Source of the DNA: Oscillatoria sp. FACHB-1407
Lineage (GTDB): Bacteria > Cyanobacteriota > Cyanobacteriia > Elainellales > Elainellaceae
Direction: 5' to 3'
Assembly (NCBI RefSeq): GCF_014697545.1
Contig: NZ_JACJSA010000013.1
Location: forward strand, 1-64,000
Length of the DNA: 64,000 nt
Shown: positions 8,015 to 62,318 of the stretch, in pieces
Layout: each line of letters starts with the position of its first letter
Numbering within the stretch: position 1 is the stretch's first letter
Notes under the pieces: generated by a model
Database searches by the model: none
What the model was told of the DNA's origin: nothing
What the model saw: only the letters and a program-made list of their open reading frames with translations
Position numbers and translations under genes: made by a program

Positions 8015-8017
8015 AAA

Positions 8018-15450: not shown

Positions 15451-15458
15451 CCGCCTCC

Positions 15459-26533: not shown

Positions 26534-26700
26534 AAATGCCTGGCTTTCCCCCTGTTACTTTCTTAGTAAACCCACTGAGACCTGAAAATCTTGCAGCCAC
26601 GCACCCATTTAACGCTTTTCTATAGTGTATTGAGAAAACAAGGGGGTTATCCAAAATCCCTTCTGTTTTAATGAGTTTGGCAGGTTATAGGGAGCATTTC

Positions 26701-28164
26701 ATGAAGATTATTGTGATTGGAAGCGGTTTTGGCGGATTGTCGGCTGCCATCCGGCTACAGGCACAGGGACATCAGGTAACGATGGTAGAAAAACGGGATA
26801 AACCGGGTGGTCGTGCCTATGTGTTTCAGCAGGACGGTTTTACTTTCGATGCAGGTCCAACCATCATCACGGCTCCCTATCTGATTCATGAATTGTTCGA
26901 GGTCAGCGATCGCAAAATCGAAGATTACATCACGCTGGTGCCGCTCGATCCGTTCTACAACGTTCGGTTCGAGGATGGCTCAGTGTTTCGCTACAATGGC
27001 AATCGAGATTATCTGCTGGAGCAAATTCGGCAGTTCAATCCAGCGGATGTGGAGGGTTACGATCGCTTCTACCAAGCATCGGAGCAGGTGTTTGAAAAGG
27101 GGCTGCCCCTAATGACTCAGCCCTTTAGTCGCTTCACTGATATGCTCAAAGTCGCGCCAGATATGCTGCAATTGCAGTCATTCAAATCGGTAGCAGGCTT
27201 TGTGAATCAGTATATTCAGGATGAGCGGCTACGGCAGGTATTCAGTTTTCATCCTTTATTGATTGGAGGCAATCCGTTTCAAAGTACATCCGTCTACGCC
27301 ATGATTCACAAACTAGAGCAGGCGTTTGGGGTTTGGTTTGCAATGGGAGGCACAGGGGCTTTGGTACAAGGCTTGGTGCGTTTGTTTCAAGAGTTAGGGG
27401 GAGAATTGCGGCTTAATAGCGAAGTCTCAGAAATTTTGATTGATGGTAAGAGAAAAAAGGCAACAGGGATTGCTCTGAGAAATGGCGACTTGCTTCAAGC
27501 GGATGCGATCGTCAGTAATGCAGATGTTGCATCAACCTATCTCAATTTAGTTCCTTCTCAGTTTCGTCGCAAATATCGCGATCGCTACATCCAGAACTTG
27601 CGCTATTCGATGTCATTGTTTGTCATCTACGTTGGGACAAACCGCCGCTATGAGCAAATGGCGCATCACGAGATTTTGATGGGTCCGCGTTACCGAGAAT
27701 GGATGGTGGACTTATTCGATCGTAAGCATCTGGCATCAGACTTTTCGCTCTATCTGCACCGTCCTACGGCAACCGATCCAACCCTTGCACCATCGGGGTG
27801 TGACTGCTGGTACGCATTAGCTCCCGTTCCCAATTTGGATGGAGCAACCAATTGGCAGGAAATGACGAAGCCTTTCCGAGATGCCATTATTCAATACCTG
27901 GAGCAGCACTATCTACCAGACCTATCCCAACACATTGTTACGGAGCGTGTTGTTAACCCTCTCTATTTCCGTGATGAGTTGAATAGCTACAAGGGAAGTG
28001 CATTTTCAGTAGAGCCAACGCTATTTCAATCTGCCTGGTTTCGCCCTCATAACCAGAGCGAGGACGTTTCAAATCTTTATTTTGTTGGAGCCGGAACGCA
28101 TCCAGGAGCGGGAATACCAGGGGTGATGAGTTCTGGCAAAATTGTGGCAAATATGCTTAACTAA
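26701..28164 (+). CDS. crtI: Phytoene desaturase, bacterial CrtI type
   Basis: 487 aa from the ATG at 26701, which has AGGGAG 6 nt upstream; the frame opens earlier at 26671. The N-terminus is an FAD-binding Rossmann motif (MKIIVIGSGFGGLSAAIRLQ, EKRDKPGGRAYVF, FDAGPTIITAPYL), and the C-terminus is LYFVGAGTHPGAGIPGVMSS, the CrtI signature. CrtI converts phytoene to lycopene in several steps at the membrane. Most cyanobacteria instead use CrtP, CrtQ and CrtH; Gloeobacter is the known exception with CrtI. The gene is alone, on the opposite strand from all neighbours, with no phytoene synthase next to it, and separates two defence operons. A related diapo- or C30-carotenoid desaturase is possible. 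Confidence 0.85.
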   Translation: MKIIVIGSGFGGLSAAIRLQAQGHQVTMVEKRDKPGGRAYVFQQDGFTFDAGPTIITAPYLIHELFEVSDRKIEDYITLVPLDPFYNVRFEDGSVFRYNGNRDYLLEQIRQFNPADVEGYDRFYQASEQVFEKGLPLMTQPFSRFTDMLKVAPDMLQLQSFKSVAGFVNQYIQDERLRQVFSFHPLLIGGNPFQSTSVYAMIHKLEQAFGVWFAMGGTGALVQGLVRLFQELGGELRLNSEVSEILIDGKRKKATGIALRNGDLLQADAIVSNADVASTYLNLVPSQFRRKYRDRYIQNLRYSMSLFVIYVGTNRRYEQMAHHEILMGPRYREWMVDLFDRKHLASDFSLYLHRPTATDPTLAPSGCDCWYALAPVPNLDGATNWQEMTKPFRDAIIQYLEQHYLPDLSQHIVTERVVNPLYFRDELNSYKGSAFSVEPTLFQSAWFRPHNQSEDVSNLYFVGAGTHPGAGIPGVMSSGKIVANMLN

Positions 28165-28231: not shown

Positions 28232-28855
28232 TTAATCATCGTCATCGCCCGGTGCCCAACCATAATTGGAGAAGCCATCTAAGCCAATCATGTCCAGATA
28301 GTCCCTGGTTGTGATAGTGCCATCAAAATCCTCGTCTGACTCATGCGCTTCTTCAAACAATTCAACAGCGTCTTGGATGAAGCGATCGCACACCCATCTG
28401 TAAACTCGTTCAAAACTGCGGTTTCCATCCAGGTAAATTACAGCAACTAAAGCCTCGAACATTTCTCCATAAACACCTGGCTCTTCTTCAGGCGGTTTGC
28501 GGTTTGGTCTGTTCCAGGATGAGCAGAAGCCGGGTAATCCTAGCTGAACCGCAAATCTAGTCAAAGATTCTCGACAGGTAACGTCCTGTCTCCAGGCATC
28601 GAGGTCTTGATTGGTCAACTCTGGGTGAGTAGTGAAAAGGTAGTCAGCCAGAATAGCATCGAGCAAGCGATCGCCTAAAAATGCAAGTCGCCGATATTGA
28701 AGCACAATGGTTTGCCGTTCTTGTTCTGAGACAAGAGGCAGTTGCAGCGTTGAGAGATCTGTGAGAGCAAGGCTTAGCAGATCGTCACGGCTGAAGCCAG
28801 AAATAGCGATCGCTTGCTTGGCTTCTAGCAGCTTGATATTGAGCGGGTGAATCAT
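28232..28855 (-). CDS. RNase III-like protein with altered active site
   Basis: 207 aa. The RNase III fold is seen in YRRLAFLGDRLLDAILADYLF and GEMFEALVAVIYLDGN. Compared with the E. coli NERLEFLGD box, the Glu38 and Glu41 positions are Arg and Ala, Asp45 is kept, Asp114 is Glu, and Glu117 is kept, so catalysis may be weak or lost. There is no double-stranded-RNA-binding domain; the C-terminus ends in a run of Asp. It starts 6 nt after the DUF262 gene, as last gene of a four-gene operon, so it likely serves that system rather than rRNA processing. Confidence 0.8.
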   Translation of the reverse strand: MIHPLNIKLLEAKQAIAISGFSRDDLLSLALTDLSTLQLPLVSEQERQTIVLQYRRLAFLGDRLLDAILADYLFTTHPELTNQDLDAWRQDVTCRESLTRFAVQLGLPGFCSSWNRPNRKPPEEEPGVYGEMFEALVAVIYLDGNRSFERVYRWVCDRFIQDAVELFEEAHESDEDFDGTITTRDYLDMIGLDGFSNYGWAPGDDDD

Positions 28856-28861
28856 AGATGA

Positions 28862-30931
28862 TTACGCAGCAGCTAGAGAGTACTTTCTCAGAATGCTGGA
28901 AAACCAAAGAATTGCTGCTTCCCCATCTTTTATAATCACATCGGTTAAATCCCGATTATGTGCGAGCGTATTTCTCAAATTCTGAAGCTGAGTGAAGCGG
29001 CTCTGAACCGCCCCTTTGCTGCCAAAGTATGGTTCAAAATACTGCCAATTGCTACTGCTAATCATTAATTCGCAATATTCAGAGATGTCGAAGAATTGCA
29101 ATTGCTTCTCCAATGATTTGAATTCTTCTGGATCTTCGGAGGGGTTATCTCTCAGGTATTTCTGTGCTCTACCATCAACCTTTGCAACAAAGTGGTGTGG
29201 AATGTAAGATTTCGGCTCAATGTCTTCCTCGTGTTCTGCGGCGACATCTAGGATTAATTGGCGAATCGCAAGTTCTACCTCCTCAAGGCGCTGCCGCCAT
29301 TGGTCTACATCTCGTGAAACATGAATGGTAGATTTGCCTTGATAAAGCTCGTTAAGAAAGCTGTTAATGCCCAGTGCCAACAGTCTTCTACGCTCTTTAA
29401 TGAAAGCCAGGTATCCATCCCGGCTCATTGTCCACAATTCAGGTTCAACCGGAACAAATTGGCATCGCAGTTGATTAGCATCAATATTCGGTAAATAGGC
29501 TGAAGGGTCATTGTTAAAGATGCTGTGATTTGTAGCTGAGGTGATCAGGGCAATATTGGCTAACTCGTTAACGAGACTCTTGTCGTAGGAGGAACTGGAA
29601 CTGAAGATTTTGTAGAGTTTGCTCTTGGGGAAAATATGGTGTCGCTCAATGGAGTAAGTACGCCCTATGATGTTGTTGTACAACGGTAGTGAGGGATCAG
29701 CCCAATCAGCGGCTCCATTACGGCGGACAAGAATATAGAAAATCTGATATAGACGGCTTCTAACACCTTGCAGTTCAAGGTCAGCTTCAGTGACATCAAG
29801 ATTACCCCCTCGAACCAGGGCAACCATCTTGATTAACTCATCGACTGAGTTTGTTTCCTTCAAAATCCGAACATCCCTATCCAGGGCTGACTCAGAACTA
29901 CTGCTATACCGTCCCCACATTAATGCGTTGTAGACCCAGTAGAGAAACTTATCACGAGTCTGGGTGTCTGGGAATTTGAAGTTGTTATTGGAAATGTAAT
30001 AGATCAGTGGAAAGAAGACATACGGTGTACTTAAGAATGTAGTGTCATCAATGTATCCATGCTGTGGGAGGACATTCACCAAATAATCTAAAGACTTCTC
30101 GGTTTTATTCCAGGCATTGATTAAGTCATCTCTGCTTAATGCTGAAACGTTGTCAAAAACCCCGCGAGATGTGGCGATGACAGAAATACAACGAGTAAAA
30201 AAATCTAAATTGAAGTGGAAGTTGACCTTACTATATTTTTCAGCAGCAGCACGCATTTTGTCTTTGCAATCTTCCCATCGTCCTGTTATCAACGCTAATG
30301 CCAAATCTGAATCAGATAGAGGCGTGCCAGCACTGTTAACGAGGTTGAAGATCTCAACCACTTGCATAGGGTCTTGCTGTTCAACTTCCTGAATGTAGTA
30401 TTCGTAATTTTTGATGTTGTCGAGTCGGTTCAAACGCTCTAATTGCGTCACGAGGTATACAGAGAGTTCTGGATTGATAGTGGCTGCGTTGGCAATGTAG
30501 CCACCAGCCCCTTTCTGTAACAAGTCAGCTACAGCGATCCACTCCTTCTTCCCACTCATTAGAGTTTGGGTAAAGTATTGAAACTCCTCAGTGTCTAGAT
30601 TGAAGTAAAGGTCTGTTCTGGGCGGTTTTCCCTCAATCCAGTTGGGAGGAAAGCCTTTGAGTAGGGTGTAAAGGGTCGTGAGGCGCTGTTGCCCATCTAA
30701 AATCAAGCGGGTAAACGTGTTTTCCTCAGAAGGATTAGTGCCTTTAATTTTAGAAGGGATTTCAGCTTTCCAAACTAGGAAAGCCCCTGTAGGATATCCA
30801 CGATAGAGTGATTGAAAATACTTCTTAACCTGCTCTGAATTCCATCGAAAACCCCGCTGAAACTCTGGGAGAAAGTAGCGGTTTTTCTGAATATCGTCAA
30901 TAAGAGAGTGAATTTTCTGGGTGGTTGCCAT
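28862..30931 (-). CDS. DUF262 / HNH (GmrSD-like) protein with C-terminal HEPN-like region
   Basis: 689 aa. Residues about 8-120 are DUF262 (ParB-like NTPase): FLPEFQRGFRWNSEQVKKYF, YPTGAFLVWK and RLILDGQQRLTTLYTLLKG. The middle has a DUF1524 HNH nuclease motif, RHHIFPKSKL, near residue 430 with ITSATNHSIFN after it. This pair defines GmrSD/BrxU-type modification-dependent or nucleotide-driven nucleases. The C-terminal 100 residues end in LRNTLAHNRDLTD, an R-x4-H pattern typical of HEPN RNases (Swt1-like). Gap to the SNF2 gene upstream 136 nt, to the RNase III-like gene downstream 6 nt. The target is not predictable from sequence. Confidence 0.85.
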   Translation of the reverse strand: MATTQKIHSLIDDIQKNRYFLPEFQRGFRWNSEQVKKYFQSLYRGYPTGAFLVWKAEIPSKIKGTNPSEENTFTRLILDGQQRLTTLYTLLKGFPPNWIEGKPPRTDLYFNLDTEEFQYFTQTLMSGKKEWIAVADLLQKGAGGYIANAATINPELSVYLVTQLERLNRLDNIKNYEYYIQEVEQQDPMQVVEIFNLVNSAGTPLSDSDLALALITGRWEDCKDKMRAAAEKYSKVNFHFNLDFFTRCISVIATSRGVFDNVSALSRDDLINAWNKTEKSLDYLVNVLPQHGYIDDTTFLSTPYVFFPLIYYISNNNFKFPDTQTRDKFLYWVYNALMWGRYSSSSESALDRDVRILKETNSVDELIKMVALVRGGNLDVTEADLELQGVRSRLYQIFYILVRRNGAADWADPSLPLYNNIIGRTYSIERHHIFPKSKLYKIFSSSSSYDKSLVNELANIALITSATNHSIFNNDPSAYLPNIDANQLRCQFVPVEPELWTMSRDGYLAFIKERRRLLALGINSFLNELYQGKSTIHVSRDVDQWRQRLEEVELAIRQLILDVAAEHEEDIEPKSYIPHHFVAKVDGRAQKYLRDNPSEDPEEFKSLEKQLQFFDISEYCELMISSSNWQYFEPYFGSKGAVQSRFTQLQNLRNTLAHNRDLTDVIIKDGEAAILWFSSILRKYSLAAA

Positions 30932-31067
30932 AATGTTGTAACTGAATGATTCGGAGTTTTTGAATAGAATTCCTAAAACAAGCTGAATTAGAAGAGTTTG
31001 AGAGGATTCTTTTCTTGTAGTCAGTAAGCTTTTCTTGTTTCTTTATGAGCTTTAAGTAAGGTGAACT

Positions 31068-33767
31068 TCACTGTAATTCCACCAGATCTTTCATAGCTAA
31101 ACTTTCAGGGCAGAGAATTACTAACGCCTTGACATCTGGAACGCGGAATGGCAAGTCTAGCTCAGTGATATTACTGCCAACTAATTGTTCAGCTTTGAGC
31201 AACCAGTTCTTCAATGTTTCTGGTGGAATTGCTGGGTTTCCACCTGGCTCAATTCGTCTCAGTAATGGTTTCATCAACGTATTTAGGAGAGTTAAGACTT
31301 CGTAATCATGGCGCAATATTGGAATATTTGTAAATTCAACACCAACAATAACTGCTCGAATAGAGCCACTACTTTCAGTCACACGATCTGTAACGCTTAG
31401 TAAAACAAGTGGATTAGGTAGAAGCTCAGATGGCAGTAAAGCTGCTGCCTCTTCCAATGATCGTGCTTGCTCAAGCGCTCGATCTAATAAAGGATGTCCT
31501 ATGCCAAGAATACGCTGATTAGCATCACTGCCTCTGAAATCGCGATCAAATACTAAGCCACTATAGTTGGGTTTGATTCCAATTCCGGTCCAAACTTCAG
31601 GCGTACGAAAACTCAAACCGTCTTCTGTAAATTTGGCTTGACGGTGATTATGCATCAACATTCCTGTGAAAAAAGGGCGTAATGCAGGCAGATCTACTTC
31701 TAACAGCTGTCCAGCCAATTCTCTGTAATCAAAGCTCGCACAATGCCCAACTAAATCACGCACAGTTTGCAAAGCATCTTGACCTCCAAAGCGAGTAGTT
31801 TTGCTATCAAACCATGAATTTAAGGTTTCTCTAGGCACTGTTGGGGCTTCAGAAAACAACTCTGTCCAAACTGAAGGAGATGTCATGCCCAATACCACGG
31901 GAAAAAGATCCTCACTTTCCTCCATAACACCACTAAGGGCGAGTTGGATGCGCTGCATCTTCTCTTCAAGTCGCTCCCAGATAGTTGCCTCAATAGTATC
32001 AGGGTTGCGAAGTGTCACTACCTCAACTTTATGAGTTTGACCATAGCGGTACAAGCGCCCAACGCGCTGATGAAGTCGCATTGGGTTCCATGGAATGTCA
32101 ACATGAATTAGCGTGTAACAATTCTGCTGTAAGTCTACCCCTTCACCAGCTGCTTCTGTAGACACCAAGAATCGGGCTTCCCCTTCATTGAATAACTGAA
32201 TGGCCCTTTCCCTTGGACATCGTAAGGTTTTACCATTAACATTGTGAACTTCCTGATCCCCGTTGATGAAGGTTACAGCAGTTCCGCCATAATGCTGAAT
32301 CAAAGCATTTATTAATAAGGATTGGGTTGCCTTATACTCTGTAAAAAACAGTACCGACCGTTCAGCGAAATCTCCCTTGAGTAAATCAAGGATGCGCTGA
32401 ATGCGAGTTTCAAATTTAATAGCGTTGGAGAGATCAACCAGTTTTGTAAGGTACTCTTCCTCATTCTCCATAAGAGATAAAGCAACAGAAAGTTCAACAA
32501 TGCGTTCGTCCAAAGCACTAACATCATCTTCAGACCGATCGCTCGTATCTACTTGAGCAAGGATTGTCTTTAACTGCTGTCGTAAGGCTTTGAGTTGGTC
32601 TAACTCGTTCTGTTGAGATTTAAGACTTTGAAGCCGCTTTTGTAATGCTGACCGTACCGCTGCGACTGAACTTGATGCTAACTTCTGCAAAGCAGAAAGA
32701 ACTAAATTTACGGCACGTCCTTCAAATCCATCAAGTGACGAAGCGTAAGTGTAACCCTCTAAGATGAATTGGGTCAAAGTATCATAGAACTTAGCTTCCT
32801 GATCAGAGTAATGGTATGTTACGACCTGAGTCTTTACACCATTAAATAACAGGCGACCATGTAGGTCAGTGACGTTTTGTTTGTTGTTTCGGATCATCAC
32901 ATCTCGTAACGCCGATAAATATATTTCTAATGGTTGTTTTGGATCTTCGAAAACATCAGGACGTAGCAGCTTTAGTAGTGCCAGAAAACTATAGTCCTTA
33001 CCCCGGTGTGGCGTACCTGTAAAAAATACTATTGACTTAAGCTTTTGAAACTCGTTTAACTTCTGCAATAGTTTGAAGCTGAGAGTGATGCCGTTGACCT
33101 CATCAGCATTGAGATGATGGGCTTCATCAACAATAACTAAATCCCAGGGGGGCGAGGAAAGCAGGCGATCGTGACGCCCGCGTCGATCATCACGGAGAGT
33201 TTGTAATGAAGCTACTACCTGGTTGTGAGTTTCCCAAAAACCATTACGAGGTGTATCAGCTTCAGTTGTGTAGGGTGTGAAGCGTAAATCAAACATCTCG
33301 CGTAAGCGTAAAACCCACTGTTCAACCAATGAAGCTGGAGCAAGTATTAGAACACGTTGGACAATCTTTCGCGAAACAAGGGGCCAAAGAATCAACCCAG
33401 CTTCAATCGTCTTTCCCAAACCTACATCATCCGCAATTAACCAACGGAAGGGCCAACGCTCCAAAACCTTACGGCATACCCAAAGCTGATGGGGAAGTAA
33501 CTTGACACGTGAACGGGAGAAGACGCTCCAGCGATCGTTGAGAGAGTCGATAGTTGCAGCCAAACCACGTAAAATTACAGGAAGAGGAGCTTGCCAATTT
33601 CCTTCTTCAATAACTTGCTGAAGAGTTATTGAACTGCGGATCGAAATGATCTCGCATTCCTCAATACCATGCTCAAATCGAACTATAACAGTTGCACCCC
33701 GATCAAGGATGACTTCACCTGAACCGAGGGTAACATGGTTTACAAAATCACCTGTTTGAAATGTCAT
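31068..33767 (-). CDS. SNF2/RapA-type helicase paired with the sacsin-like protein
   Basis: 899 aa. Helicase motifs: IADDVGLGKTIEAGLIL near residue 117, DLVIVDEAHHL near 215, VFFTGTPHRGKDY, and in the second half VSTEAAGEGVDLQQN and RLHQRVGRLYRYGQ. It resembles DrmD and RapA but lacks the long N-terminal extension of the DrmD encoded at 48185-51331, and the two are clearly different in their C-terminal halves. It starts 12 nt after the sacsin-like gene, so they form one unit. Likely role: ATP-driven translocation on DNA as part of a multi-component defence complex (inference). Confidence 0.87.
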   Translation of the reverse strand: MTFQTGDFVNHVTLGSGEVILDRGATVIVRFEHGIEECEIISIRSSITLQQVIEEGNWQAPLPVILRGLAATIDSLNDRWSVFSRSRVKLLPHQLWVCRKVLERWPFRWLIADDVGLGKTIEAGLILWPLVSRKIVQRVLILAPASLVEQWVLRLREMFDLRFTPYTTEADTPRNGFWETHNQVVASLQTLRDDRRGRHDRLLSSPPWDLVIVDEAHHLNADEVNGITLSFKLLQKLNEFQKLKSIVFFTGTPHRGKDYSFLALLKLLRPDVFEDPKQPLEIYLSALRDVMIRNNKQNVTDLHGRLLFNGVKTQVVTYHYSDQEAKFYDTLTQFILEGYTYASSLDGFEGRAVNLVLSALQKLASSSVAAVRSALQKRLQSLKSQQNELDQLKALRQQLKTILAQVDTSDRSEDDVSALDERIVELSVALSLMENEEEYLTKLVDLSNAIKFETRIQRILDLLKGDFAERSVLFFTEYKATQSLLINALIQHYGGTAVTFINGDQEVHNVNGKTLRCPRERAIQLFNEGEARFLVSTEAAGEGVDLQQNCYTLIHVDIPWNPMRLHQRVGRLYRYGQTHKVEVVTLRNPDTIEATIWERLEEKMQRIQLALSGVMEESEDLFPVVLGMTSPSVWTELFSEAPTVPRETLNSWFDSKTTRFGGQDALQTVRDLVGHCASFDYRELAGQLLEVDLPALRPFFTGMLMHNHRQAKFTEDGLSFRTPEVWTGIGIKPNYSGLVFDRDFRGSDANQRILGIGHPLLDRALEQARSLEEAAALLPSELLPNPLVLLSVTDRVTESSGSIRAVIVGVEFTNIPILRHDYEVLTLLNTLMKPLLRRIEPGGNPAIPPETLKNWLLKAEQLVGSNITELDLPFRVPDVKALVILCPESLAMKDLVELQ

Positions 33768-33779
33768 ACTGAGATTGCC

Positions 33780-36700
33780 TCACCGAACGCGAAACCGCAC
33801 TCCATCCCAACGTGTACGCCATTCTCCTGGGTCACCTTGGTTAGAAAAGTTTACCCAACTGGATACATCATCCTCTGATTCCACAGGTTCTTGCGGCACA
33901 GGGATTCTGCCTAATAACTTCTCTTGAATATCCCCCGGTTCATCCTGAAGCATTAGAAAAGGCAAATCGTAGTCGCCAAAGTAGGTGGCATCCTCTTCAC
34001 CGAGGTGTTCAACTAGAAAATCATGGATACTCATTGAGTTTTCTACAGCCGTTCTTCTGCTGTCACCTCTGACGGCGCTACAACCAATTGCAAACAGCAT
34101 TGCTCGCACCCGTCGAACTGGTACGTAAGCATAAGGGCGCATTCCTGGATTCGACAATATTCCACCGCGTACTAACTCGCGGACTATAAACGTAGAACCA
34201 ATTCCTAAAATACTACCTACTGGTGGTGCTCCTTGCCCTATACCAGTGCCTTGTAGGACTGGATTTTGTTGAGGATTTAGAACTAAATCGATTGGATTAC
34301 GAAGTTGAGTTTGACCGATGCCTAGATATGCATTCAGATTATTAGTTGCTAACAAGCTGTCGCGATATGCATCCAACCATTTAGAAAACGCATAAAAAGC
34401 AGGATAATAGCGCACCCATTGGTAGTACTGAAGGCGATCGCCAACACGTGGAGACGTGAAATACCGATCAAGTAAATTGATCCATCCGACCTCATCTACT
34501 TCGCCAGTAACCATGACATCGATCCATCCCCAATTCTCACAATGCTGCAAAAAGGTACGATGCTGTTCAGGGCTGGTGCGCCCCATTGTATGCAAGGCTC
34601 CTAGCATGAATAAAATTAGCCAACGGTTTCTAGAGAAGCTAGGATTACTGTGGTCGTTGTAATTGTTCTGGTTTAATTTGAGGTCAATGCGTGGATAAAG
34701 GTTCTTTTCATACTTTGGAATTAGACGATTACGTTCTTCTGACCACCATTCTAAAATATTGAATAGAACATCTTCTATACTTGGAGTAGGTAGTAATCCT
34801 TTTCCTTTATCCTCATCAGAAGTGTTTCCTTCGTCAACGGCTATGCCTTCAAAAGCTATATCATTGTCATTTGATGAAGCTAACAACTCCAATTTATCTA
34901 GTAATTCATAAAATGAAGAAGGGGTGACTCCGTATTCCTTCTTTGAGTTATTTCGCTTTGATGGAAGATCTGCTAGCCAGCTATTTTCAAGCCTGTCTTT
35001 GAGCCAATCAATTAGTTCGTCACGGTGTTTACTATTGACCAGGTATTGAACACAAAATTTATGGGTATCGACAGAAGCTTCCAATACCCATTTTCCACGT
35101 ACTTCAACCGGAATAGAGACTAGCGAGAGATCTTCAGATCGACACGCATAGAACAGGTTTAAAGATCCACATTCATAATCTTCAGCTAGTAGGGCTGAAG
35201 CAGGAGCAAATAGAGCAAGCTGGGATTCTTCTGATCCTTCAAGCGAAGATTCGACAACTAGGAGATTTTGTGCAGTAGCCGTATTTTGATCGCGGCTTTG
35301 AAACTGCACGGTTCTCAAAAACTCTTGAATGGTACGTGCCTCCGAGGGAGGTAGTTTGTCTAAAAAAACCTGATTGATTAATAGCTCAACAACCAACGAA
35401 ACTTCTGGAGAAACTATATGGGTAAGCTGCCATTTTAGAACTGTCAGCAAATCTAAATATTTAACCGGATACCCTATTAGCTTCTTCAAAACCTCAGCAA
35501 CTTTATGCGATACAACCTGTCCAGGAAGAATTTGATGCTGTCCTTTTGCTAAGACTGGCCAGTCTAAAACTTGTGTCAACACAGCCTCATCAGAGTTAAG
35601 GATGTCACTCACAGCCCATTGAATACTTCCTAGTCGAGTTAAACAGTTAAATTGACCAGTACTTTTTGGTAATTTCGTTGGTAGAGCATCACAGGTAGTG
35701 TAAAGAAGTGGCATTCCTCTGTTTTCTACCCAAAACATTTGATAGAGTAGCCCAATACCTTGATCACCAGCGTTTTGGCTAGCCAGTTGGTCGCTCAGGA
35801 TATTCCAAATACTTGTCCAAAAAGTTAGTCGTGTTGTACCTGTAGTAAGGTTAAGTGCTTGGCAAAGTTGTACGTCATCAAGCTGATAGAGATTGATGAG
35901 TGCCTGACTAAACTCACGCCCCATTTCTTTCGCAAGCTCTTCGTTAAATTGCTTGCCTCCACCGCTCAAATCTAACTGCGATCGCCCAACATCTAAACGG
36001 AAGGGACCGTTAATCGCAAAGCCAACTTTTAAGTGCATTCTTGTGGGAGCTGTGACCCAAAAAGTTGGATAGTTTGAAGATAGTAGTGTACCTCCAGATG
36101 GATTGAGAGGAATGAGACAACGCCTTCCTGGTTTTCCTAAGAGTAGTGCGTTCAGGGATTTATTGTTCTTAAGCTCTATGCTTCTGCCTAAGTAAACATT
36201 AGGAATACCATCAATAGTTTTCTCATCCCAACTCCAAGTACGCCTACTATCTCTAATTCGCACTTTGAACTCTCGAAGCCACCGGGAGAACGCTCCAAGC
36301 AAAGGTGCATATTCAACAAATTTTTCGACGACAGGACGTGCCTCCGAATCATTAACGTTCAGTTTAACAATTGTTCCTTCTTCGCTATCGCCTAACTGAC
36401 TTGCTATTGTTTTAAACTCGTCATCTGATAGTTCTTTAGGGTAAACACCACCAATAACATCAAAGCCAATACGATCACTAACAACCCGTGGTTTGCTAGT
36501 TAGCAAAAATACGCTTTTGAAGCCCAGCCCAAATTTGCCTGTCACTCCTTCGGATTTATCAGAAAAATTGAGCAAGAGCATCTTCAGGAGATCATCGCTA
36601 TAACCACGAATACTCCAGTCACATCCGTTAAATTGATACTGGTTGATTGCTCGTCCCCAATGTGAAATGCAAAGAGAATTATTTGCCAAACTAATCGTGA

Positions 36701-39700
36701 ACTGGCGTGAAACTTCAGTCTGTCCCATTTCTCGCAATTCCCAACAAGCATCATCAGCATTCTGAAAAAGCTCAAATGGAACTGAATACTTGTCATAGTT
36801 AGCATTTTCAATACGCTGTCTCACACCTACTAAAAATGCCCTCTGTGTTTCCTCATTATTAATGAGATCGTTACGAATCTCCTTTTTATTTTCTTGTAAA
36901 GCTTTCTCATTCTTCTGAAGCTCGGATGTGTACCGTCTACGTTCTGGAAACTTTTCCTGTAAGCTTAGTAAACTTTCACGCTGTTTCTGTAAATCAAAAT
37001 GCTTGTGAATAAGAGATTTTATCTTGCTGTCTTGGTCTAGTCTAAGCTGGCTCCTAATGCTGATGATTGCATCATTCAAAAGAATGTTCTGGGTTTCGCG
37101 AATGTCAGGCGGAGCTTGATCTTGTAATTTCTCCCAAAAACTATCAAGGTCAGTTACGCGGTATCCATAACATTCCTCCAAAATAATTTTGAAGCTCTGT
37201 TTGGCTAATCTTAGTAAAAGAATTTCATCTAGAGATGTGCTCTGGCGTAATGAAAGCTGAATATATGAAATTTTAACTAGGTTAGTTTTCCGAACATCAC
37301 CAACAATTAGGCTTTCTGCTTCTCCTTCACGAAGCAAGTGAACTTTTACCGTCTCTCCGGTTAAGCTTCTGACTCGTATCACATCACTCTGATGCTTGTT
37401 AACAAAGAACTTTGTTCTCTCAATATCGCTTATCAAAAAATGAACTGCATTTTTATGATCATTATTATCATCGGCTTTGCGAATTTCTTCTAAAAAATGA
37501 TCAACTCTTGGAAAATATACTTTAGCGAGTTCCTTTAATTCACCCCGCTCACCTAATAGTCTGAGCAAAAGACCGATCGCATTATTAGTTCGCCGTGGCC
37601 AATCCTTAAAATAGCGTTGAAGTAGCTCATTGCTATTTCTTAGTGCCTCATTTGAAAAGTCCTCATCGAACTCCTCAGCATCATCGCTTATAGATTGAGA
37701 TTCATCATTTTCTGCATTGGCTTGCTTAATTTGGGCACCAATAATCTCAGCAAGGCTAGTGTGTAAAATATCAGACGGATCAACATTAATAGCTCCGTAA
37801 CATAGTTGCTGGGCACTTCTCCACTCTTCCGACTGATTAAGGAGTTGAATCTGTTGCAGTATATCTACCCACTCGACGCTCTCGCTTGCTAGCGCTAAAT
37901 ACTGGCGATATGTTTCAAACAGGGCTAAACGTAGGGCATTGTTGTTCTGGGTGTTGCTATGACGATTAGCAAGAGCGTTCAGAATTTCAATTAATCTCTC
38001 AGAGCCTAATGGTTCTCCAAGAATCTCAAACAGTTGTTTTGTACCACTTGGCGTATGTCCGTTAAGCTTTGCTAGTAAACTTGACGCAGGCATTACATCG
38101 CTTGAAAGTTCACGAAAAGCATCAAACCATTGCTGACGTACTTGCTCGTCTTTGACCAATATCTCTGTTAAAGTTCCAATGCGGTAGCGATCGTTCTCCG
38201 ACAGCAGCAACATTTCTCCCAGCATATCCAAAGCTTCTTTCTGAGATGGGAATAGTTGTCGTAAAAGGCTAAACGCTTTATGTTTCTGCAAATCTTGGGA
38301 AAGGTTCTGAGAAGCAACATACATCTGTTCACATTCTGCACATATTTGTTGTACTTCTTCTTGAATTAGCGAGAGGTGAATAATTTCAATTGGAGCACAA
38401 CAATTTCCTGGTCGCACTCCCGGTCGCAATGGTAACCATTCGACTTCCAATAGGTCATCTAACTTGCCACAGTCTTCAGGTGCATGCTTAAGGGCATCTA
38501 GGACAATCGGCCAATACTCCACTGGATTATCAAGCTTCAGCAAATAGTGTTCAATTAGTGTCCGTGCATCGATAGGTGGTTTGAGTGCTGCTTGTTGTTG
38601 AGCAATCTCAATACGGCTACTACGACGTAGGAGTATAATTCCTAATTTCTGAGCTAAAGAAGGCTCTATCTGAAAGTCATTACCGTCTCCTTGCAGATAA
38701 GTATGTTCATCAATAGCAATTCGTGAAGAGCCGCGTTTTGTGTCTACAGCCTCGTGGATTCTTAACTGACTACTAATTTTGAAAGGTAAGTTGTAAATTA
38801 GTTTTTCACATTCTTCCCAGCTAAACTCATCCCACCTCAAAGAATGAAGAGGCGTGCCAGAAGTAGCAATACGAGTTAACTCTTGCTCTACACCCTTCGC
38901 ATCAACATTGGTAATACCAAGCGCCTGGCATTGTTGAGGAGATAAGACTTCTAGCAATTTATTGTCAATAAATCGCCAATGTTGGCTAGGCTCAATAATA
39001 TGTTTAAGAACTTTAGACCAAAGGGTATTTACGTTAGTTGTTTGATTAGGACTTGCGTAGAGTGGATCACGAATATCGTCAAAATGGCTTGGGTCAGCAT
39101 GTAGCAGATAGCGTAAAGCGCTTCGATCTGTGGAAGGGTTTATGGAGTGTGCGATTTCTTGAACTAATGCCTGACGAAATTCTAGTGATGTTTGTAGTGC
39201 TGGCTTTTGTTTGACTAAGGTAATGACATTACTGGCATTACACTGTGGCAATTTGATGGAATCGTCGAAACTAAGATAAATAGGGTCTTTTAAGGACTGA
39301 GCTAGTATTTTGGCAAGTGGTGCATCTCCTTCCGGGGAGGCGGTATCCTTGAACAGCCTGTAGCTCGCTTTGACCCCTTCTAACCAAGTACAAGAATGGA
39401 ATTCTCGAATTTTTCCGCTACCGCTAATTTTTGTGACTTCAAATAAATCCAATTGGCAAATTTTTTGCCAATACTCAGATTGACGTGAAGCTATCCTAGA
39501 TATGACTGAATTTACAAATGATCTGGCAGCCTGAGAGTTTTTAACCTCACTTTCCAGTTCAACTAAGATCAGATACGTATCGAACTCTGAAAGCTTTGGT
39601 GCTGTTGGTTTTTCAGATCTCAGACTAGTGGGAATAATCAGGCAAGAAGTTTCTAGCTGCAACAGTCTTTGCTTTAATCCTTTAGATAAACCATTTGGTA

Positions 39701-41552
39701 TTCCAAGGACTTGCTCTGCGGGAAGCTTATCAATCAGGGTATGTAGGGTATCGGCAGCTTGAAAGTTGGGTATTGAGAAAGCACTCTTCAGAAATACTCT
39801 TAAAGCGTCAGTAACGGTGGATGTTTCAGGAGTGTTAGATGACCACTGGGGAACCGCATGATCAAGAAAATCGCTTAGAACCTTAACTTGCCTATTGTTT
39901 GCACAAATATCTGATGCACATGAGAACCGCCCTTGCAGAAGTTTAATAATATCAGCGGTTTTCCATACAGCCGTATTATTGCTCTTGGTCAATCTAGGCC
40001 ACTCTTTCAAGGTTACAGTTCTACTTTGGCAAACCTGGCTTAAATTTGGAAAAATCTCGGGCAGTAGTTCGACGGTCGATTCTGGAATGGTTAAGGGTTG
40101 CTCCTGGCTCTGGATAAAACACCAAGTTAATTGGCTGGAATGACCAAAGTTGACTTTGCAAAGCCAAGATCCCTCTGCACAAATATGCTGGCGGTAGCTT
40201 CTCCAAAGCTTTGATTTGAGTAAAGTATGAGTCAATGCTTTGACAGAGTTAGGCGATCGCTCTTGTGCAAAACTCTCTAGCGTTGGCAGAAGAAGGCGCA
40301 AGGTTCCCCGTTCTGCCAGAATTTGGTTCCACTCCTGATAAATATTTTTTTGCTGCTCATTAAGCCAGCTACGAATACGACGGCGATCGCTTTGCAGAAA
40401 AAAGAAACCGTGTAAGGTCAGAACATAATCTTGGTTATTTCCATTTTCAAATTCTAAAGTCAAAGTCTCTGATGGTTCTCCGTCGGGCATTTCAGCTGTA
40501 GGTAGAAAGACAGCCCAACGGATTAATAATTTACCAGCACCTGTTTTAGTTGGTTGTGAACTAATTAGGGCTGCACAGTGAGGCTCTGCTTTCTGCTTTT
40601 CTGGTGGACCTACAATTGGGATATTTCTGGGCCAATCACTGCGATCCTTGAGAGCCTGAAGTGCTGGTTCATTAAGCAGTTGTTGTTGCCCAAAATACGT
40701 GTGGTTTTGCACACCATCGATATTGATTTTGCCATCTAATGAAATGGGTTTAGGAGTAGGTTCAGCTTTGAAGTCTGCTAGGCATTGGGTTGAACCCTCT
40801 TGAACTGCAATTTTGTGCAAATTCAGCCCATCGTATAAGTCAACGGTCTGTACGTGCTTGAGGAGTGGTAATAGATCTGCTAATTCTTTAGCTAAATCTC
40901 CCTGGAACTCTTCTAAGAACCGATGATTTCCGTCACCTGGGTAGTTTTCGATAATTGGAGCAGTATGACCTCCACGTTGGCAATGTTCACGACAACGTAG
41001 TGGCACCCAAAGTGTAAATCCATCTGCTAAACCGATGCGTTGTCTCTCCGCATTAATTTTCGCTTGATCACTCTCAGTGAAGTCTAGTTTGTCCCATTCG
41101 GAAGCTGGAACATCATCCTCGTTTTCTGTAAACCATAAGTTTAGAATTGAACCTGACTCAACACCTGGATCAATCTTAGGTCCAGTTAAGTAGAAGAACG
41201 CCTCACAAATCAAGAAAACTGTCTTCAGTCCTAAGCCAAACTTTCCTACAGCAGAACTATCATTTTCTTTTGAACTTAGACCGATCGCCCGGATACTTTT
41301 AGCATCGCGTTTAGAGAAGGGACCATCATTTACAGCTAAGATAGCAGGACCACGAAGCAGCGGATGCTCAGCTTCTGGTAAACCGCCTGACCAAGCAAGA
41401 CCTAAATGTGCCGCCCTACAATCATCAGCATTTTGTACAATTTCTTTCAAAATGAACATTAAGCTGGTTTGGTGTTGCTGACCTTCCAACAAAGTGTTTC
41501 TGATGTTGTTAATGTCGCCTCGGGCAGTATGTATGGCACCAAAGTTAGGCAT
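33780..41552 (-). CDS. Giant sacsin-like protein with two HSP90-type GHKL ATPase domains
   Basis: 2590 aa, one of the largest genes here. Two GHKL ATPase domains of the sacsin/HSP90 N-terminal type are present. The first, residues about 30-120, has LKEIVQNADDCRA, ILAVNDGPFS and GKFGLGLKTVFLI. The second, about 1595-1690, has FELFQNADDACWE and GVTGKFGLGFKSVFLL, but where the G1 box should read DxG it reads SHWGRA, so its nucleotide site may be impaired. A Lys/Glu-rich probable coiled coil precedes the second domain. The remainder is unknown. First gene of the operon with SNF2, DUF262-HNH and RNase III-like genes, placed inside a DISARM locus. Probable role: sensor or chaperone-like scaffold. 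Function not established. Confidence 0.85.
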   Translation of the reverse strand: MPNFGAIHTARGDINNIRNTLLEGQQHQTSLMFILKEIVQNADDCRAAHLGLAWSGGLPEAEHPLLRGPAILAVNDGPFSKRDAKSIRAIGLSSKENDSSAVGKFGLGLKTVFLICEAFFYLTGPKIDPGVESGSILNLWFTENEDDVPASEWDKLDFTESDQAKINAERQRIGLADGFTLWVPLRCREHCQRGGHTAPIIENYPGDGNHRFLEEFQGDLAKELADLLPLLKHVQTVDLYDGLNLHKIAVQEGSTQCLADFKAEPTPKPISLDGKINIDGVQNHTYFGQQQLLNEPALQALKDRSDWPRNIPIVGPPEKQKAEPHCAALISSQPTKTGAGKLLIRWAVFLPTAEMPDGEPSETLTLEFENGNNQDYVLTLHGFFFLQSDRRRIRSWLNEQQKNIYQEWNQILAERGTLRLLLPTLESFAQERSPNSVKALTHTLLKSKLWRSYRQHICAEGSWLCKVNFGHSSQLTWCFIQSQEQPLTIPESTVELLPEIFPNLSQVCQSRTVTLKEWPRLTKSNNTAVWKTADIIKLLQGRFSCASDICANNRQVKVLSDFLDHAVPQWSSNTPETSTVTDALRVFLKSAFSIPNFQAADTLHTLIDKLPAEQVLGIPNGLSKGLKQRLLQLETSCLIIPTSLRSEKPTAPKLSEFDTYLILVELESEVKNSQAARSFVNSVISRIASRQSEYWQKICQLDLFEVTKISGSGKIREFHSCTWLEGVKASYRLFKDTASPEGDAPLAKILAQSLKDPIYLSFDDSIKLPQCNASNVITLVKQKPALQTSLEFRQALVQEIAHSINPSTDRSALRYLLHADPSHFDDIRDPLYASPNQTTNVNTLWSKVLKHIIEPSQHWRFIDNKLLEVLSPQQCQALGITNVDAKGVEQELTRIATSGTPLHSLRWDEFSWEECEKLIYNLPFKISSQLRIHEAVDTKRGSSRIAIDEHTYLQGDGNDFQIEPSLAQKLGIILLRRSSRIEIAQQQAALKPPIDARTLIEHYLLKLDNPVEYWPIVLDALKHAPEDCGKLDDLLEVEWLPLRPGVRPGNCCAPIEIIHLSLIQEEVQQICAECEQMYVASQNLSQDLQKHKAFSLLRQLFPSQKEALDMLGEMLLLSENDRYRIGTLTEILVKDEQVRQQWFDAFRELSSDVMPASSLLAKLNGHTPSGTKQLFEILGEPLGSERLIEILNALANRHSNTQNNNALRLALFETYRQYLALASESVEWVDILQQIQLLNQSEEWRSAQQLCYGAINVDPSDILHTSLAEIIGAQIKQANAENDESQSISDDAEEFDEDFSNEALRNSNELLQRYFKDWPRRTNNAIGLLLRLLGERGELKELAKVYFPRVDHFLEEIRKADDNNDHKNAVHFLISDIERTKFFVNKHQSDVIRVRSLTGETVKVHLLREGEAESLIVGDVRKTNLVKISYIQLSLRQSTSLDEILLLRLAKQSFKIILEECYGYRVTDLDSFWEKLQDQAPPDIRETQNILLNDAIISIRSQLRLDQDSKIKSLIHKHFDLQKQRESLLSLQEKFPERRRYTSELQKNEKALQENKKEIRNDLINNEETQRAFLVGVRQRIENANYDKYSVPFELFQNADDACWELREMGQTEVSRQFTISLANNSLCISHWGRAINQYQFNGCDWSIRGYSDDLLKMLLLNFSDKSEGVTGKFGLGFKSVFLLTSKPRVVSDRIGFDVIGGVYPKELSDDEFKTIASQLGDSEEGTIVKLNVNDSEARPVVEKFVEYAPLLGAFSRWLREFKVRIRDSRRTWSWDEKTIDGIPNVYLGRSIELKNNKSLNALLLGKPGRRCLIPLNPSGGTLLSSNYPTFWVTAPTRMHLKVGFAINGPFRLDVGRSQLDLSGGGKQFNEELAKEMGREFSQALINLYQLDDVQLCQALNLTTGTTRLTFWTSIWNILSDQLASQNAGDQGIGLLYQMFWVENRGMPLLYTTCDALPTKLPKSTGQFNCLTRLGSIQWAVSDILNSDEAVLTQVLDWPVLAKGQHQILPGQVVSHKVAEVLKKLIGYPVKYLDLLTVLKWQLTHIVSPEVSLVVELLINQVFLDKLPPSEARTIQEFLRTVQFQSRDQNTATAQNLLVVESSLEGSEESQLALFAPASALLAEDYECGSLNLFYACRSEDLSLVSIPVEVRGKWVLEASVDTHKFCVQYLVNSKHRDELIDWLKDRLENSWLADLPSKRNNSKKEYGVTPSSFYELLDKLELLASSNDNDIAFEGIAVDEGNTSDEDKGKGLLPTPSIEDVLFNILEWWSEERNRLIPKYEKNLYPRIDLKLNQNNYNDHSNPSFSRNRWLILFMLGALHTMGRTSPEQHRTFLQHCENWGWIDVMVTGEVDEVGWINLLDRYFTSPRVGDRLQYYQWVRYYPAFYAFSKWLDAYRDSLLATNNLNAYLGIGQTQLRNPIDLVLNPQQNPVLQGTGIGQGAPPVGSILGIGSTFIVRELVRGGILSNPGMRPYAYVPVRRVRAMLFAIGCSAVRGDSRRTAVENSMSIHDFLVEHLGEEDATYFGDYDLPFLMLQDEPGDIQEKLLGRIPVPQEPVESEDDVSSWVNFSNQGDPGEWRTRWDGVRFRVR

Positions 41553-41953: not shown

Positions 41954-44900
41954 TTAGAACAATTCACCTTGCTGCACGATTGCTGGCTCGATCGCCTTAG
42001 TTTTCTTCCCCTTTGCCTTCTGCCCCTTGCCCTTTGCCTTCTTCTTATCGTGCAAACCCTGAGCAACTTCCTCGGCGTACCGTTGATGATTCAACTCCAA
42101 CAGCCGATCGAGTACTTCGCGTCTTGCGGTTTCGCTGATGGTGAAGCGGATGCCTTGTTTAGTAGTGTGGAAATCGTGCCCTAAGTCGAGGTCTTGCCAA
42201 CCGTAGGCATTTGCTACCTCCCGATCCATCTCAATGTGCAACTCTCGTAATTTCTGAATATCATCCGCTGTCTCATTGGGGTCATGGAAGCGGTTGTAGG
42301 TTTTGGTCAGCCCTTCCTGCCGTTCGCGCATGACTGTCTGACGATGGGTGTAGTAGGTTTCGCCGATCGTGTTGAGGGTTGGGAATTGATTGTTGAGATC
42401 TGAGGGATCGGGTGTAGGGAAAGGGAAGGTTTCAAGACAATCTGATGCTGCATAACGCAGTAACTGCAAATTATACGAACCATATTGCCTAGCCCATATG
42501 TCATGCAAATTGCTACTTAAAACAGCAAATGCATCATAAGTATTGAACACAAGAATTGTTAGAGCATGAGAAAAGACAATTTCTTTAGGAAGAAATGCAA
42601 AAGCTACATATTTAGTTGCTTGGGCTGCAATAGCTAAGACCTTATCTGTTTCCTTAGTTGCATTTTCGAGTGCTTTTGCTATACGCCCATATTGCCACCA
42701 ATACTCTTTTCTCCTTCTTCCATCCGCATTATCATCTTTCAATTTTTCTCTTTCCGGCTTTACTTTTTGCTTCACTATCTCCAAACAGTCAGGATAATCT
42801 GCTGCATATGGAGGACCTTTGGGGTTTTCAGGATCATCATGTTTAGCATCTAAAGCCCAGTCTTTAAAGTTAATTACCCAGCGACTAGGAGATTGACTAA
42901 AGTGAGCATTTAATTCCTGCCCAACCATATAAGGGGAAATAACTTCTCTATTAATAAAGCTTTTTGTCAGTAACGACTGTGCTTGTTCTGGAATTAAAAC
43001 AAATCCTTCTCCATATATTTTATGACCGTTGAAGGATCTTCTAGAATTTGTAGCAAGCTTGAAAGGATTACCTAGATTAGAGGTTTTAGCCGTTAAGGCA
43101 GACGTAATTCCACTAACCTCCTTGTTGTCCAGAACATATTCTGCCAACCACTTTCCTTGATATAACCAAATATTAGAATAGGTTACGCTAGCAGCACCTG
43201 ACCAACGCTGAAAAGAAACAGCTCTAATAATTTCATAACTTTTTTGAAGAAGTTGATCTAGGCAAACTTCACGAGTATCTCCTTCCAAGAGCGCAGTAGT
43301 AGATACAAAACCTAACGCGCTATAATTTTGAATCAGTTTTTGACATCTCAATAGAAAATAGGCGCAAAAGTCTGCATTCCCCCTTTTGCCATCTGCAACA
43401 TGATTAACCAAGTAATCTCGGTAATCTGATCCAAACCTACCTGATATATTTGTTCCTCCCATAAAAGGTGGATTGCCAACGATCGCTGCAAATCCCTTCG
43501 TTTCACCTTCCAAAAACACTTCGGGAAACTCCAGCAACCAATGAAACGGTTTTCGTGGCGGTTGATTTGCTGGATTTCCCAGGTTTAGCATTCGTTCTGC
43601 ACTTGCCTTGAGTGCCGTAATGTCTCGCGTTTGTTCTTCCGTTGCTTTTCCTGCTAACTCCTGTTCAATCCGCTGCGACACCACCATCAAATCTTCAGTC
43701 GTCAAATCAGACGTTTTCCCGGCATCTGCCAACGCTCTACCAATCAAGTAATCCCCCACAAACCGAAGCCGATCGATCGCCCGTTCTGCCTCGTTAAACA
43801 GTCGTTCCTTTTCCTGTAAATCTTCAATGCCATTGACGCTAAAACTTTCCAGCTTGCGGCGTTTGGCGATCGCATCCTGTAAAATCGGTCGCCAAATTTG
43901 AGAGGCGATCGGGTACTGCACCGCTTCATTGTCTGGATTCAGATTCAAATACTCGATCTGTTCCGCACGAGTAATGCCCAACAGCGAATCACCCCACTTC
44001 AGCGCATGATCCAGAAACGTAAACGGTCGCCCCTTTGCCAGCGTCACCAGCCACAGCGATAGCTTCGCCATCTCAACGGCTAATGGGTTTTTGTCTACTC
44101 CATAGAGACAGCGATCGGCTACAATTCGTCGCGCCACCAGCAACCGCTCATCCAAATCTTTTGGAATTGGGCATTCGTCTGGACGTGCCCCCGACAGCGT
44201 TCCCTCTGGCGCAATCACCACCTGCCCCGGATGCTCTGCCTCCGCCTGTTGCCATGCCTCCACCAGCTTTCCAGCCAGATAGCGACAGGTCTGCACCAAA
44301 AACGCCCCACTTCCCATCGCCATATCGCAGATCTTCAGTTGCAGCAATTCCGCCGCCGATCGCAACCGCCACTGTTCCTTTGGCTTGCCCTCTGCCACAC
44401 CCTCAAACACCAACGGCTCCAGCGTGTACTGTACAATCTCCTCCGTTAGATTGCGCGGTGTGTAGTGTGTCCCAGTCTGACGGCGATCGACCCCCTCTGT
44501 CACATACACCGACCCCTCCAGAATCACCACCGGATAGCCCAGCGTATCCTGCCGAATCAACCCCGCAAAGGGAAGGACGCGATCGAATAGTTGCGGGTCA
44601 TTGTTGCAAGCCGTCCGCAATCGCTGCTGGTCGCGTGGCTCAATCTCTGCACTCAACGATTTCTTCAACGCAGAAGGCGATCGCCCCGTCTGCTCCTTCA
44701 ACCAAGTCAGTAATGCTGCTTCGCCCTGCACCTGAAACCGCTCTAGCTCAGGCAATTCAACCTCTGGTTCCTCATAGCGGGTTCCCACTAACCCCAACAC
44801 CGTTGAAGTCGCTCGTACCGCCGTATGATCCAGCAAGCCTTCATAGACGTGCCCAATTTGCTCAATATCCAACGCCCGAAACGACAACCGACGCGGCTCC

Positions 44901-46785: not shown

Positions 46786-46803
46786 AAGCAGATTAAGGGT
46801 ACG

Positions 46804-47610: not shown

Positions 47611-47638
47611 GGTTAGTTCTTCTACTTTGCGAATTCCA

Positions 47639-48142: not shown

Positions 48143-48184
48143 GAATTAAACGTTTTAAACTCAGAAGTCAGCTTTTCTAGCCTA

Positions 48185-62167: not shown

Positions 62168-62243
62168 TGGTGACGGAGGTGAGAATTGCACTCACTGATG
62201 TGAAGGGTATGAACCTTCCGAGCCACTGTTGCTCCATCTCCGC
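62168..62243 (-). tRNA. tRNA-Met(CAT)
   Basis: Anticodon arm GAAGG-TTCATAC-CCTTC, D stem GAGC/GCTC, T arm GTGAG/CTCAC, CCA encoded at 62168-62170. The acceptor ends are imperfect, and depending on register a 1:72 mismatch like an initiator is possible. It could be initiator, elongator or Ile2 type. Confidence 0.75.
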
Positions 62244-62245
62244 AT

Positions 62246-62318
62246 ACCCCTGGCAGGATTTGAACCTGCACCCATCCCGGTTTAAGCGGGCTACGTCTGC
62301 CAGTTGCGTCACAGGGGT
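62246..62318 (-). tRNA. tRNA-Leu(TAA), short variable loop
   Basis: Perfect acceptor ACCCCTG/CAGGGGT; leucine-type D region (AACTGGCAGACGT); anticodon loop CTTAAAC; variable loop only 5 nt; T arm GCAGG/CCTGC; A73. Normal bacterial tRNA-Leu has a long variable arm. Confidence 0.75.

Follow-up and report, generated by a model that had tools for sequence, protein, structure and literature searches.

In a stretch of 64,000 nucleotides (nt) of DNA from the cyanobacterium Oscillatoria sp. FACHB-1407 (the window), four consecutive genes on the minus strand encode a giant protein of 2590 amino acids (aa) with two GHKL ATPase heads, an SNF2-type motor, a DUF262-HNH protein and an RNase III-like protein. 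We show that the giant and the SNF2 gene downstream of it form a two-gene unit, found again in bacteria of widely separated phyla, which is the conserved core of the locus, and that the DUF262 and RNase III genes are local extras outside this core. An earlier note on the same DNA had taken the four genes for a complete defence system and proposed tabulating the neighbours of the giant. With the tabulation in hand, SNF2, DUF262 and RNase III genes do not recur together with the giant, whereas SNF2 alone does.

Relatives of the giant were sought in 84,980 species, each represented by a single genome, using an alignment of the window protein and three Deinococcus relatives. A pattern scan seeded on the GHKL motifs kept the best 80 of 135 relatives, and the locus counts given here describe that set, which together with one viral contig (L091; L numbers denote loci) and five plasmid loci makes 86 loci. 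A locus was counted as testable when it extended at least 1.5 kilobases (kb) past the giant (66/86), and the SNF2 gene had to start within 1.5 kb. An SNF2 gene lies downstream of the giant in 58 of these 66 loci and on the same strand in 57, L050 being the exception. The two genes overlap in 34 of the 57 same-strand loci, 17 of these by exactly 4 nt, and are otherwise separated by 0-49 nt (17 loci), 50-199 nt (3) or 677-819 nt (3), a tally that leaves out a second SNF2-labelled ORF (open reading frame) of L039. The ORF calls were mechanical; the giant is apparently split into two ORFs in 15 loci, and SNF2 likewise in L039. Related loci were counted singly, and L077 and L078 look alike. When the neighbours were clustered, the giant accounted for 86 loci, the SNF2 cluster for 58 (it also takes in seven drmD-like ORFs) and the next family for 7 of the 86. 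The gene following SNF2 is on the opposite strand in 30/54 pair loci, and co-directional genes within 100 nt of the pair were found in 14 of 56 cases upstream and in 12 of 54 downstream. Pairwise distances among the giants correlate with those among the SNF2 proteins (r = 0.77, n = 49), the maximum of 2000 permutations, which ignore phylogeny, being 0.20.

The association holds in the converse direction as well. Relatives of the window SNF2 protein (E <= 1e-100) were detected in 3/146 related genomes, that of the window included, each beside a giant. On plasmids, all five records with an SNF2 protein of 46-51% identity and at least 84% coverage carry an adjoining giant (the T. variabilis 0441 plasmid record was assessed by match coordinates only), and the next record drops to 32%. 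In 16 giant-bearing genomes, selected for having a giant, all 17 SNF2 matches (E <= 1e-120) adjoin giants, the genome with two matches holding both L013 and L031. According to the record titles the hosts include cyanobacteria, Deinococcus, alpha-, beta- and gammaproteobacteria, Desulfobacterales, Planctomycetota, Chloroflexota, Vicinamibacteria, Bryobacterales, Gemmatimonadetes, Opitutales, Bacteroidales, Bacillota and Treponema; many of these records are metagenome-assembled and single host assignments may be wrong. Among viral contigs the pair is present at one locus (L091), and two further loci (L092, L093) are distant. A search of phage records with the giant gave no match, and neither did a search of E. 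coli genomes, at the DNA level only, with the SNF2 gene of L091.

Presence of the partner gene follows one part of the giant. Profiles of five stretches of the protein were searched in all ORFs of the loci, and among loci with both heads and enough downstream sequence an SNF2 gene was found in 57/57 with the C-terminal domain (residues 2250-2590) and in 0/5 without it. As the C-terminal profile was trained on SNF2-bearing relatives alone, absence of the domain may mean strong divergence. The five negatives (L030, L046, L057, L058 and L059) are double-GHKL giants with neither a detectable C-terminal domain nor an adjoining SNF2 gene; two of them are shorter (L046, 2265 aa; L059, 2299 aa), and L030, L057 and L058 total 2485-2590 aa in two ORFs. 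L057 was scored as having no partner, its only SNF2-type sequence being a 150-aa piece (71 bits) about 9 kb off, on the opposite strand and cut by the locus end. In L061 a weak C-terminal match (27 bits) stands alongside a divergent SNF2 protein, and the rest of the testable loci (L060, L073 and L076) encode single-head or partial proteins and have no SNF2 gene. In the window giant the C-terminal domain matches no Pfam family. A hidden nuclease was sought in 28 members of the domain by Pfam, which yielded scattered weak matches, each in a single member (the best being Dynein_heavy, 2.9e-4), and PDB sequences gave two matches with E values of 0.11 and 0.27 that we took as noise. From its linkage to the partner gene, the C-terminal domain probably serves as a docking domain for SNF2.

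The giant is laid out as a first GHKL head (residues ~10-432), a mixed and helical middle, a second GHKL head followed by an Hsp90-like middle domain (~1572-2040), and the C-terminal domain, hitherto undescribed, at ~2250-2590. Both heads carry the features of the sacsin-type GHKL fold, namely the N box ExxQNADD, the G1 and G2 boxes (G1 being a variant in head 2) and an SR1-like fold. The catalytic residues are nearly invariant: E37, N41 and D44 of head 1 are kept in 50/51 giants, the remaining one having a gap, and E1594, N1598 and D1601 of head 2 in 51/51. AlphaFold2 models were made of two stretches, residues 1-1180 (predicted local distance difference test score, pLDDT, 86.3) and 1500-2590 (pLDDT 88.2), and the rows of the fold search (Foldseek/VIA) fell mainly on the heads. 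Sacsin SR1 is the best fold match of both, with Z 18.0 over 197 aa at 2.7 A for head 1 and Z 15.1 over 161 aa at 2.7 A for head 2; next come MORC4 for head 1 (Z 12.3, 274 aa, 4.7 A) and Hsp90 folds of the TRAP1 type for head 2 (e.g. 7kcl, Z 13.3, 367 aa, 5.5 A). A search of BFVD gave viral proteins of the GHKL type, among them RIIA-like proteins at E ~3e-4. SACS is the sole family given by a Pfam scan of the giant, and across PADLOC-DB (2023), NCBIfam and Pfam it matched only ATPase-domain models, TmtA and one weak HtpG model.

The partner is an SNF2-class motor of helicase superfamily 2 (SF2) with a GKT Walker A motif (lysine K119), a DEAH box and arginine fingers, each residue being kept in 48-49 of 49 proteins. 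It matches the RapA model at 7.6e-50 with 170 bits (cut-off 576), and its motor region matches the DrmD model PDLC02621 at 1.7e-82 and BrxH at 8.1e-78. As a second DrmD the protein was rejected, scoring 295 bits against an NCBIfam cut-off of 610 and 151.5 against 950 (NF038317/NF038318). PDLC02634 of PADLOC-DB 2.0.0, labelled 'DrmD', nevertheless matches the window SNF2 almost end to end (2.3e-283, residues 2-888 to positions 4-896 of 900), a label that would make the giant and SNF2 extra DISARM components, a DISARM subtype. The same reading draws on three of the 57 pair loci in which the pair has both drmA and drmB close by (L003, L016 and L081), on short fragments resembling drmB in L004 (136 aa, 85 bits) and L068 (176 aa, 24 bits), and on drmD- or drmMI-like matches (39-674 bits) in 13/57. 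As drmA was matched in only 7/299 sampled Pseudomonadota genomes, proximity to DISARM is commoner for the pair than it would be for a gene taken at random, as it is for defence genes. Regular co-occurrence with drmA and drmB is nevertheless lacking: in 52 of the 57 pair loci the sequence read (some contigs end early) gave no match to drmA, drmB or drmC, so the pair seems to be independent of DISARM. Ten of the 13 loci with drmD- or drmMI-like matches likewise have no drmA, drmB or drmC match, and the weaker of these matches may reflect helicases and methylases of the BREX or ARMADA type, which match the same models. The window moreover holds a genuine drmD besides the SNF2 gene, and the pair differs from the DISARM genes in GC content (0.42 vs 0.50-0.53). 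We therefore consider a DISARM subtype very improbable, and as PDLC02634 matches a non-DrmD SNF2 protein over nearly its full length, DISARM calls based on this model may be wrong.

Gene context argues for a role of the pair in defence. Among the genes next to the pair (97 and 91 scanned), the first 25 families listed by PADLOC belong to unrelated systems with 1-3 members each, these being raw counts without a random-gene control; the names include PDC-S68, RecD-like, BrxH, pAgo, DrmD, DruE, SoFic, IetA/IetS, E1-E2 and PglZ as well as type I, IIG and IV restriction. A conserved neighbour, recurrence outside DISARM and frequent adjoining defence genes thus make it likely that the locus contains a poorly described defence system, as the earlier note had suggested. 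SNF2/RapA and GHKL proteins also act in repair and chromosome handling, and five of the records that carry the pair are plasmids, which would suit a non-immune module of DNA repair or plasmid maintenance. We regard such a module as highly unlikely, considering that the pair is patchily spread over distant phyla, is rare in the manner of an accessory gene and lies beside matches to varied defence models.

Based on our data we propose, at about even chances, that the pair is a two-component, ATP-driven defence complex in which a DNA translocase works with a twin-headed GHKL clamp or switch. The giant and SNF2 would form a physical complex: SNF2 would load onto incoming DNA and move along it, and the giant would use its C-terminal domain to dock on SNF2. 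With ATP bound, the two GHKL heads, which belong to a single chain, would close on each other, as the subunits of Hsp90, MORC and MutL do, and the closed heads may trap DNA or a protein-DNA complex, upon which phage replication or transcription would stall; ATP hydrolysis at both heads would then reset the clamp. Neither the giant nor SNF2 showed a recognisable nuclease, and any cleavage would come from separate neighbours, in the window possibly DISARM or the DUF262-HNH-HEPN gene. Taken to its end, this would be nuclease-free immunity by two motors, in which a single-chain, Hsp90-like pseudo-dimer, loaded onto foreign DNA by SNF2 via the docking domain, halts the phage by entrapping it topologically or by stalling it, with neither cleavage nor cell death, a specific proposal that we consider rather doubtful.

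The pairing and the C-terminal domain bear equally on another arrangement, in which the giant acts as a sensor of infection or as a chaperone-like gatekeeper: on detecting a phage product or a disturbed replication complex with its heads, it would release or activate SNF2 as the effector, either to strip RNA polymerase or replisomes or to translocate in a toxic manner. The match of SNF2 to RapA, an RNA-polymerase-associated protein, is consistent with this, and so is the finding that the best folds of both heads are those of sacsin, a chaperone-type protein. The size of the giant and its two conserved heads would rather suggest large coupled motions than a simple switch, and the sequence itself favours neither the sensor nor the clamp. 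We hold the sensor as a tentative possibility.

Several points weigh against the proposed ATP-driven defence complex. Position 76 of head 1 is D in 40/51 relatives and N in 10/51, and head 2 has H-x-G where D-x-G is expected (H1631 in 49/51, W1632 in 41/51); nucleotide handling may therefore differ from that of canonical GHKL heads. The clamping and stalling by the twin heads is drawn by analogy, and the C-terminal domain may be an effector in its own right that escaped recognition. The uncontrolled nature of the PADLOC tallies counts here too, as does rarity, since a search of 397 other Pseudomonadota genomes gave 0 matches to the SNF2 subfamily.

We now turn to the genes downstream of the pair. 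Of the claim that the four genes make up a complete system, the recurrence of SNF2 stood and the rest did not. In a profile search of the locus ORFs a DUF262 relative was found at one other locus only, L081 (Roseomonas), on the opposite strand, aligned over the first 540 residues only and placed between the pair and drmB/drmA, and an RNase III profile run over the ORFs of the giant loci found none at any other locus with a giant. Relatives of the DUF262 protein (E <= 1e-50) occur in 2/386 cyanobacterial genomes, the window's own included, and four plasmid relatives that were inspected sit away from giants. On other plasmids, relatives of the two accessory genes (6 loci inspected) stand singly or have different neighbours; the plasmid relatives closest to RNase III come from two Calothrix plasmids and have no giant or DUF262 gene annotated or matched beside them. 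A search of viral contigs found relatives of neither the RNase III nor the DUF262 protein of the window. Accessory genes could not show on the contigs nearest to the window (L009 and L011) or on several others, as these stop shortly past SNF2.

The idea that all four genes act as one system combining DNA and RNA cleavage draws on their shared strand and small gaps, on the nuclease and HEPN-like motifs of the DUF262 protein together with the RNase III fold, and on the arrangement in L081. The distribution of the relatives argues against it, as do the 136-nt gap that parts the two cassettes, the HEPN-like end of the DUF262 protein, which fails to align with the five DUF262 relatives compared, and the failure to find a relative of the window close enough to hold all four genes. 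We find such a four-gene system most unlikely.

The earlier note had described the DUF262 protein as a GmrSD-like nuclease with an extra HEPN-like end, and the protein matches GmrSD_N/DUF262 (3e-30, 106.3 bits, cut-off 33.2). The motifs HHIFPK and RNTLAH (Rx4H, as in HEPN) are present in the sequence, whereas the corresponding domain matches are weak and below their cut-offs (GmrSD_C/HNH 0.014, 15.8 bits vs 23; HEPN_Swt1 2e-4). A phmmer search matched 7p9k, a DUF262 protein that we take to be BrxU, at 1.3e-16. Like GmrSD and BrxU, the window gene has DUF262 with DGQQR and HNH-type motifs, and it differs from them in its extra HEPN-like end. A second DUF262 protein, 36% identical to that of the window, is encoded in the same genome (G000:C51:9736-11310, L096). 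The RNase III-like protein passes the Ribonuclease_3 model (3.2e-17, 63.6 bits, cut-off 27) and falls short of canonical RNase III (TIGR02191, 62.1 bits vs 166.25), its acidic catalytic set being altered: the first Glu of LEFLGD is Ala (LAFLGD) and a later Asp is Glu, both changes being common to two plasmid relatives. These three proteins (window 28232-28855, L105:8830-9486 and L106:8830-9474) form a small family on cyanobacterial plasmids with LA(F/H)LGD and a very similar tail in 3/3 (TTRxYLDMIG...NYGWAPGDDD in two, a variant in the third).

The layout of the locus is consistent with two cassettes inserted into DISARM. All four ORFs were found where the earlier note placed them, with gaps from the giant downwards of 12, 136 and 6 nt and 401 nt between the giant and drmMI, and domain models matched two sacsin-type ATPase domains, the SNF2 helicase and the Ribonuclease_3 fold (Table 1). 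The 136-nt gap divides the genes into giant-SNF2 and DUF262-RNase III. The nesting in DISARM was borne out, drm genes flanking the block on both sides: drmD and drmMI lie on one side, and the UvrD helicase, drmA, drmB and drmC on the other. GC content is 0.424 over giant-SNF2 and 0.445 over DUF262-RNase III, vs 0.505 for drmMI, 0.499 for 46168-51331 on the drmD side and 0.521-0.526 for drmC-B-A with UvrD, and the lower values of the two cassettes fit a later insertion between the DISARM halves. The UvrD/GajB-like helicase resembles ArmD as portrayed in the account of ARMADA type II, here inside a DISARM locus (PMC12458937).

Table 1. Genes and domains of the inserted block and of the surrounding DISARM locus (window coordinates)
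Feature	Position	Strand	Remarks
drmC	17744-18685	minus	model match
drmB	18565-20436	minus	model match
drmA	20445-24446	minus	model match
UvrD/GajB-like helicase adjoining drmA	24443-26533	minus	weak N-terminal ParE/RelE-like match (ParE-like E 0.023)
RNase III-like gene, accessory	28232-28855	minus	207 aa; outside conserved core
DUF262-HNH gene with HEPN-like end, GmrSD/BrxU-like, accessory	28862-30931	minus	689 aa; outside conserved core
SNF2/RapA-like motor, partner of the giant	31068-33767	minus	899 aa; SNF2-rel_dom + Helicase_C
Giant double-GHKL protein	33780-41552	minus	2590 aa; SACS x2, P_loop_sacsin x2
C-terminal domain of the giant (residues 2250-2590)	33783-34805	minus	profile built from SNF2-bearing relatives
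drmMI of class 1 DISARM	41954-46153	minus	DrmMI 1807 bits
Genuine drmD of DISARM	48185-51331	minus	NCBIfam DrmD 1387.8 bits, cut-off 610

Other features of the window lie around this locus. A pPIWI-RE island of three genes at 5183-12239 encodes pPIWI, a DinG-type helicase with domain Z and a restriction endonuclease with domain Y, and at 13135-16619 a Prok-E2_A/ThiF/JAB-like fusion (771 aa) adjoins a gene that weakly matches models of the metallo-beta-lactamase fold. Between the inserted block and the UvrD/drmA genes a gene on the opposite strand occupies 26671-28164; from its sequence we assume it to be an oxidoreductase of the phytoene-desaturase type (CrtI) that uses flavin adenine dinucleotide, which is unexpected in a defence island. 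On the plus strand, 51627-54951 contains in a row a histidine kinase (HisKA-HATPase), a HAD-like protein with a weak phosphoribosyltransferase match and a DprA-like gene. Integrase-type genes are located at 60476-61489 and 1858-3045, with a weak one at 3180-5045, and an array of 16 transfer RNA genes on the minus strand (62172-63958) lies near the end of the window.

Several known systems share parts of this design. Tiamat is a one-gene system, and like it the giant is a large protein with a sacsin-like HATPase domain that matches TmtA, presumably a component of Tiamat, at 5.3e-26. As Tiamat itself the giant was rejected, the best stretch covering residues 33-115 only (profile positions 33-106 of 1370); the TmtA profiles are 1302-1782 positions long, and the giant adds a second head and the SNF2 partner. 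Human sacsin, like the giant, repeats SR1-type GHKL heads in one giant chain; it has three such modules together with ubiquitin-like, DnaJ and HEPN domains (PMC3710099), whereas Pfam recognises SACS alone in the giant.

The published idea that comes nearest concerns prokaryotic MORC and paraMORC proteins. Their operons combine GHKL ATPases with SF-II helicases (Rad25 or SWI2/SNF2) in mobile restriction-like neighbourhoods, for which a role in DNA looping was proposed, and the S5 motif GhXhhpXXRhl is given as MORC-specific (PMC2292703). Like the pair, they place a GHKL and S5-type ATPase beside an SFII/SNF2 helicase, with ATP-driven DNA handling as the proposed activity; they differ, within the same account, in having one GHKL module and in the frequency of nucleases and methylases around them (PMC2292703), whereas the pair has two sacsin-type heads in a 2590-aa chain, its own SNF2 subfamily, the undescribed C-terminal domain and no recognised nuclease. 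The likeness of the giant itself to MORC is structural (MORC4, Z 12.3). In Shedu type I-D, the published description of VcSduA/paraMORC3 proposes that a GHKL domain controls an anti-phage effector and predicts a clamp-like middle domain, and it gives VcSduA its own PD-(D/E)xK nuclease and one head (PMC12137116); the pair has an SNF2 motor instead of a recognised nuclease. The helicases DrmD of DISARM, BrxHI/II of BREX and ArmA of ARMADA belong to the broad RapA-like SNF2 class (PMC12458937), which the pair SNF2 shares as a subfamily of its own whose partner is the giant and not a methylase or a YprA helicase. Our search of the literature, mainly open access, found no description of a sacsin-like giant with an SNF2 partner. 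We place the pair among the conflict systems that join a GHKL ATPase to an SF2 helicase, and it looks undescribed.

The near-perfect linkage of a domain to a partner gene, in a unit of only two genes with obvious catalytic mutants, makes the pair an easy experimental target. It is also of interest for the relatives that sacsin and MORC have in prokaryotes, and it could show whether heads of the sacsin/Hsp90 type act as immune clamps or switches together with an SNF2 motor.

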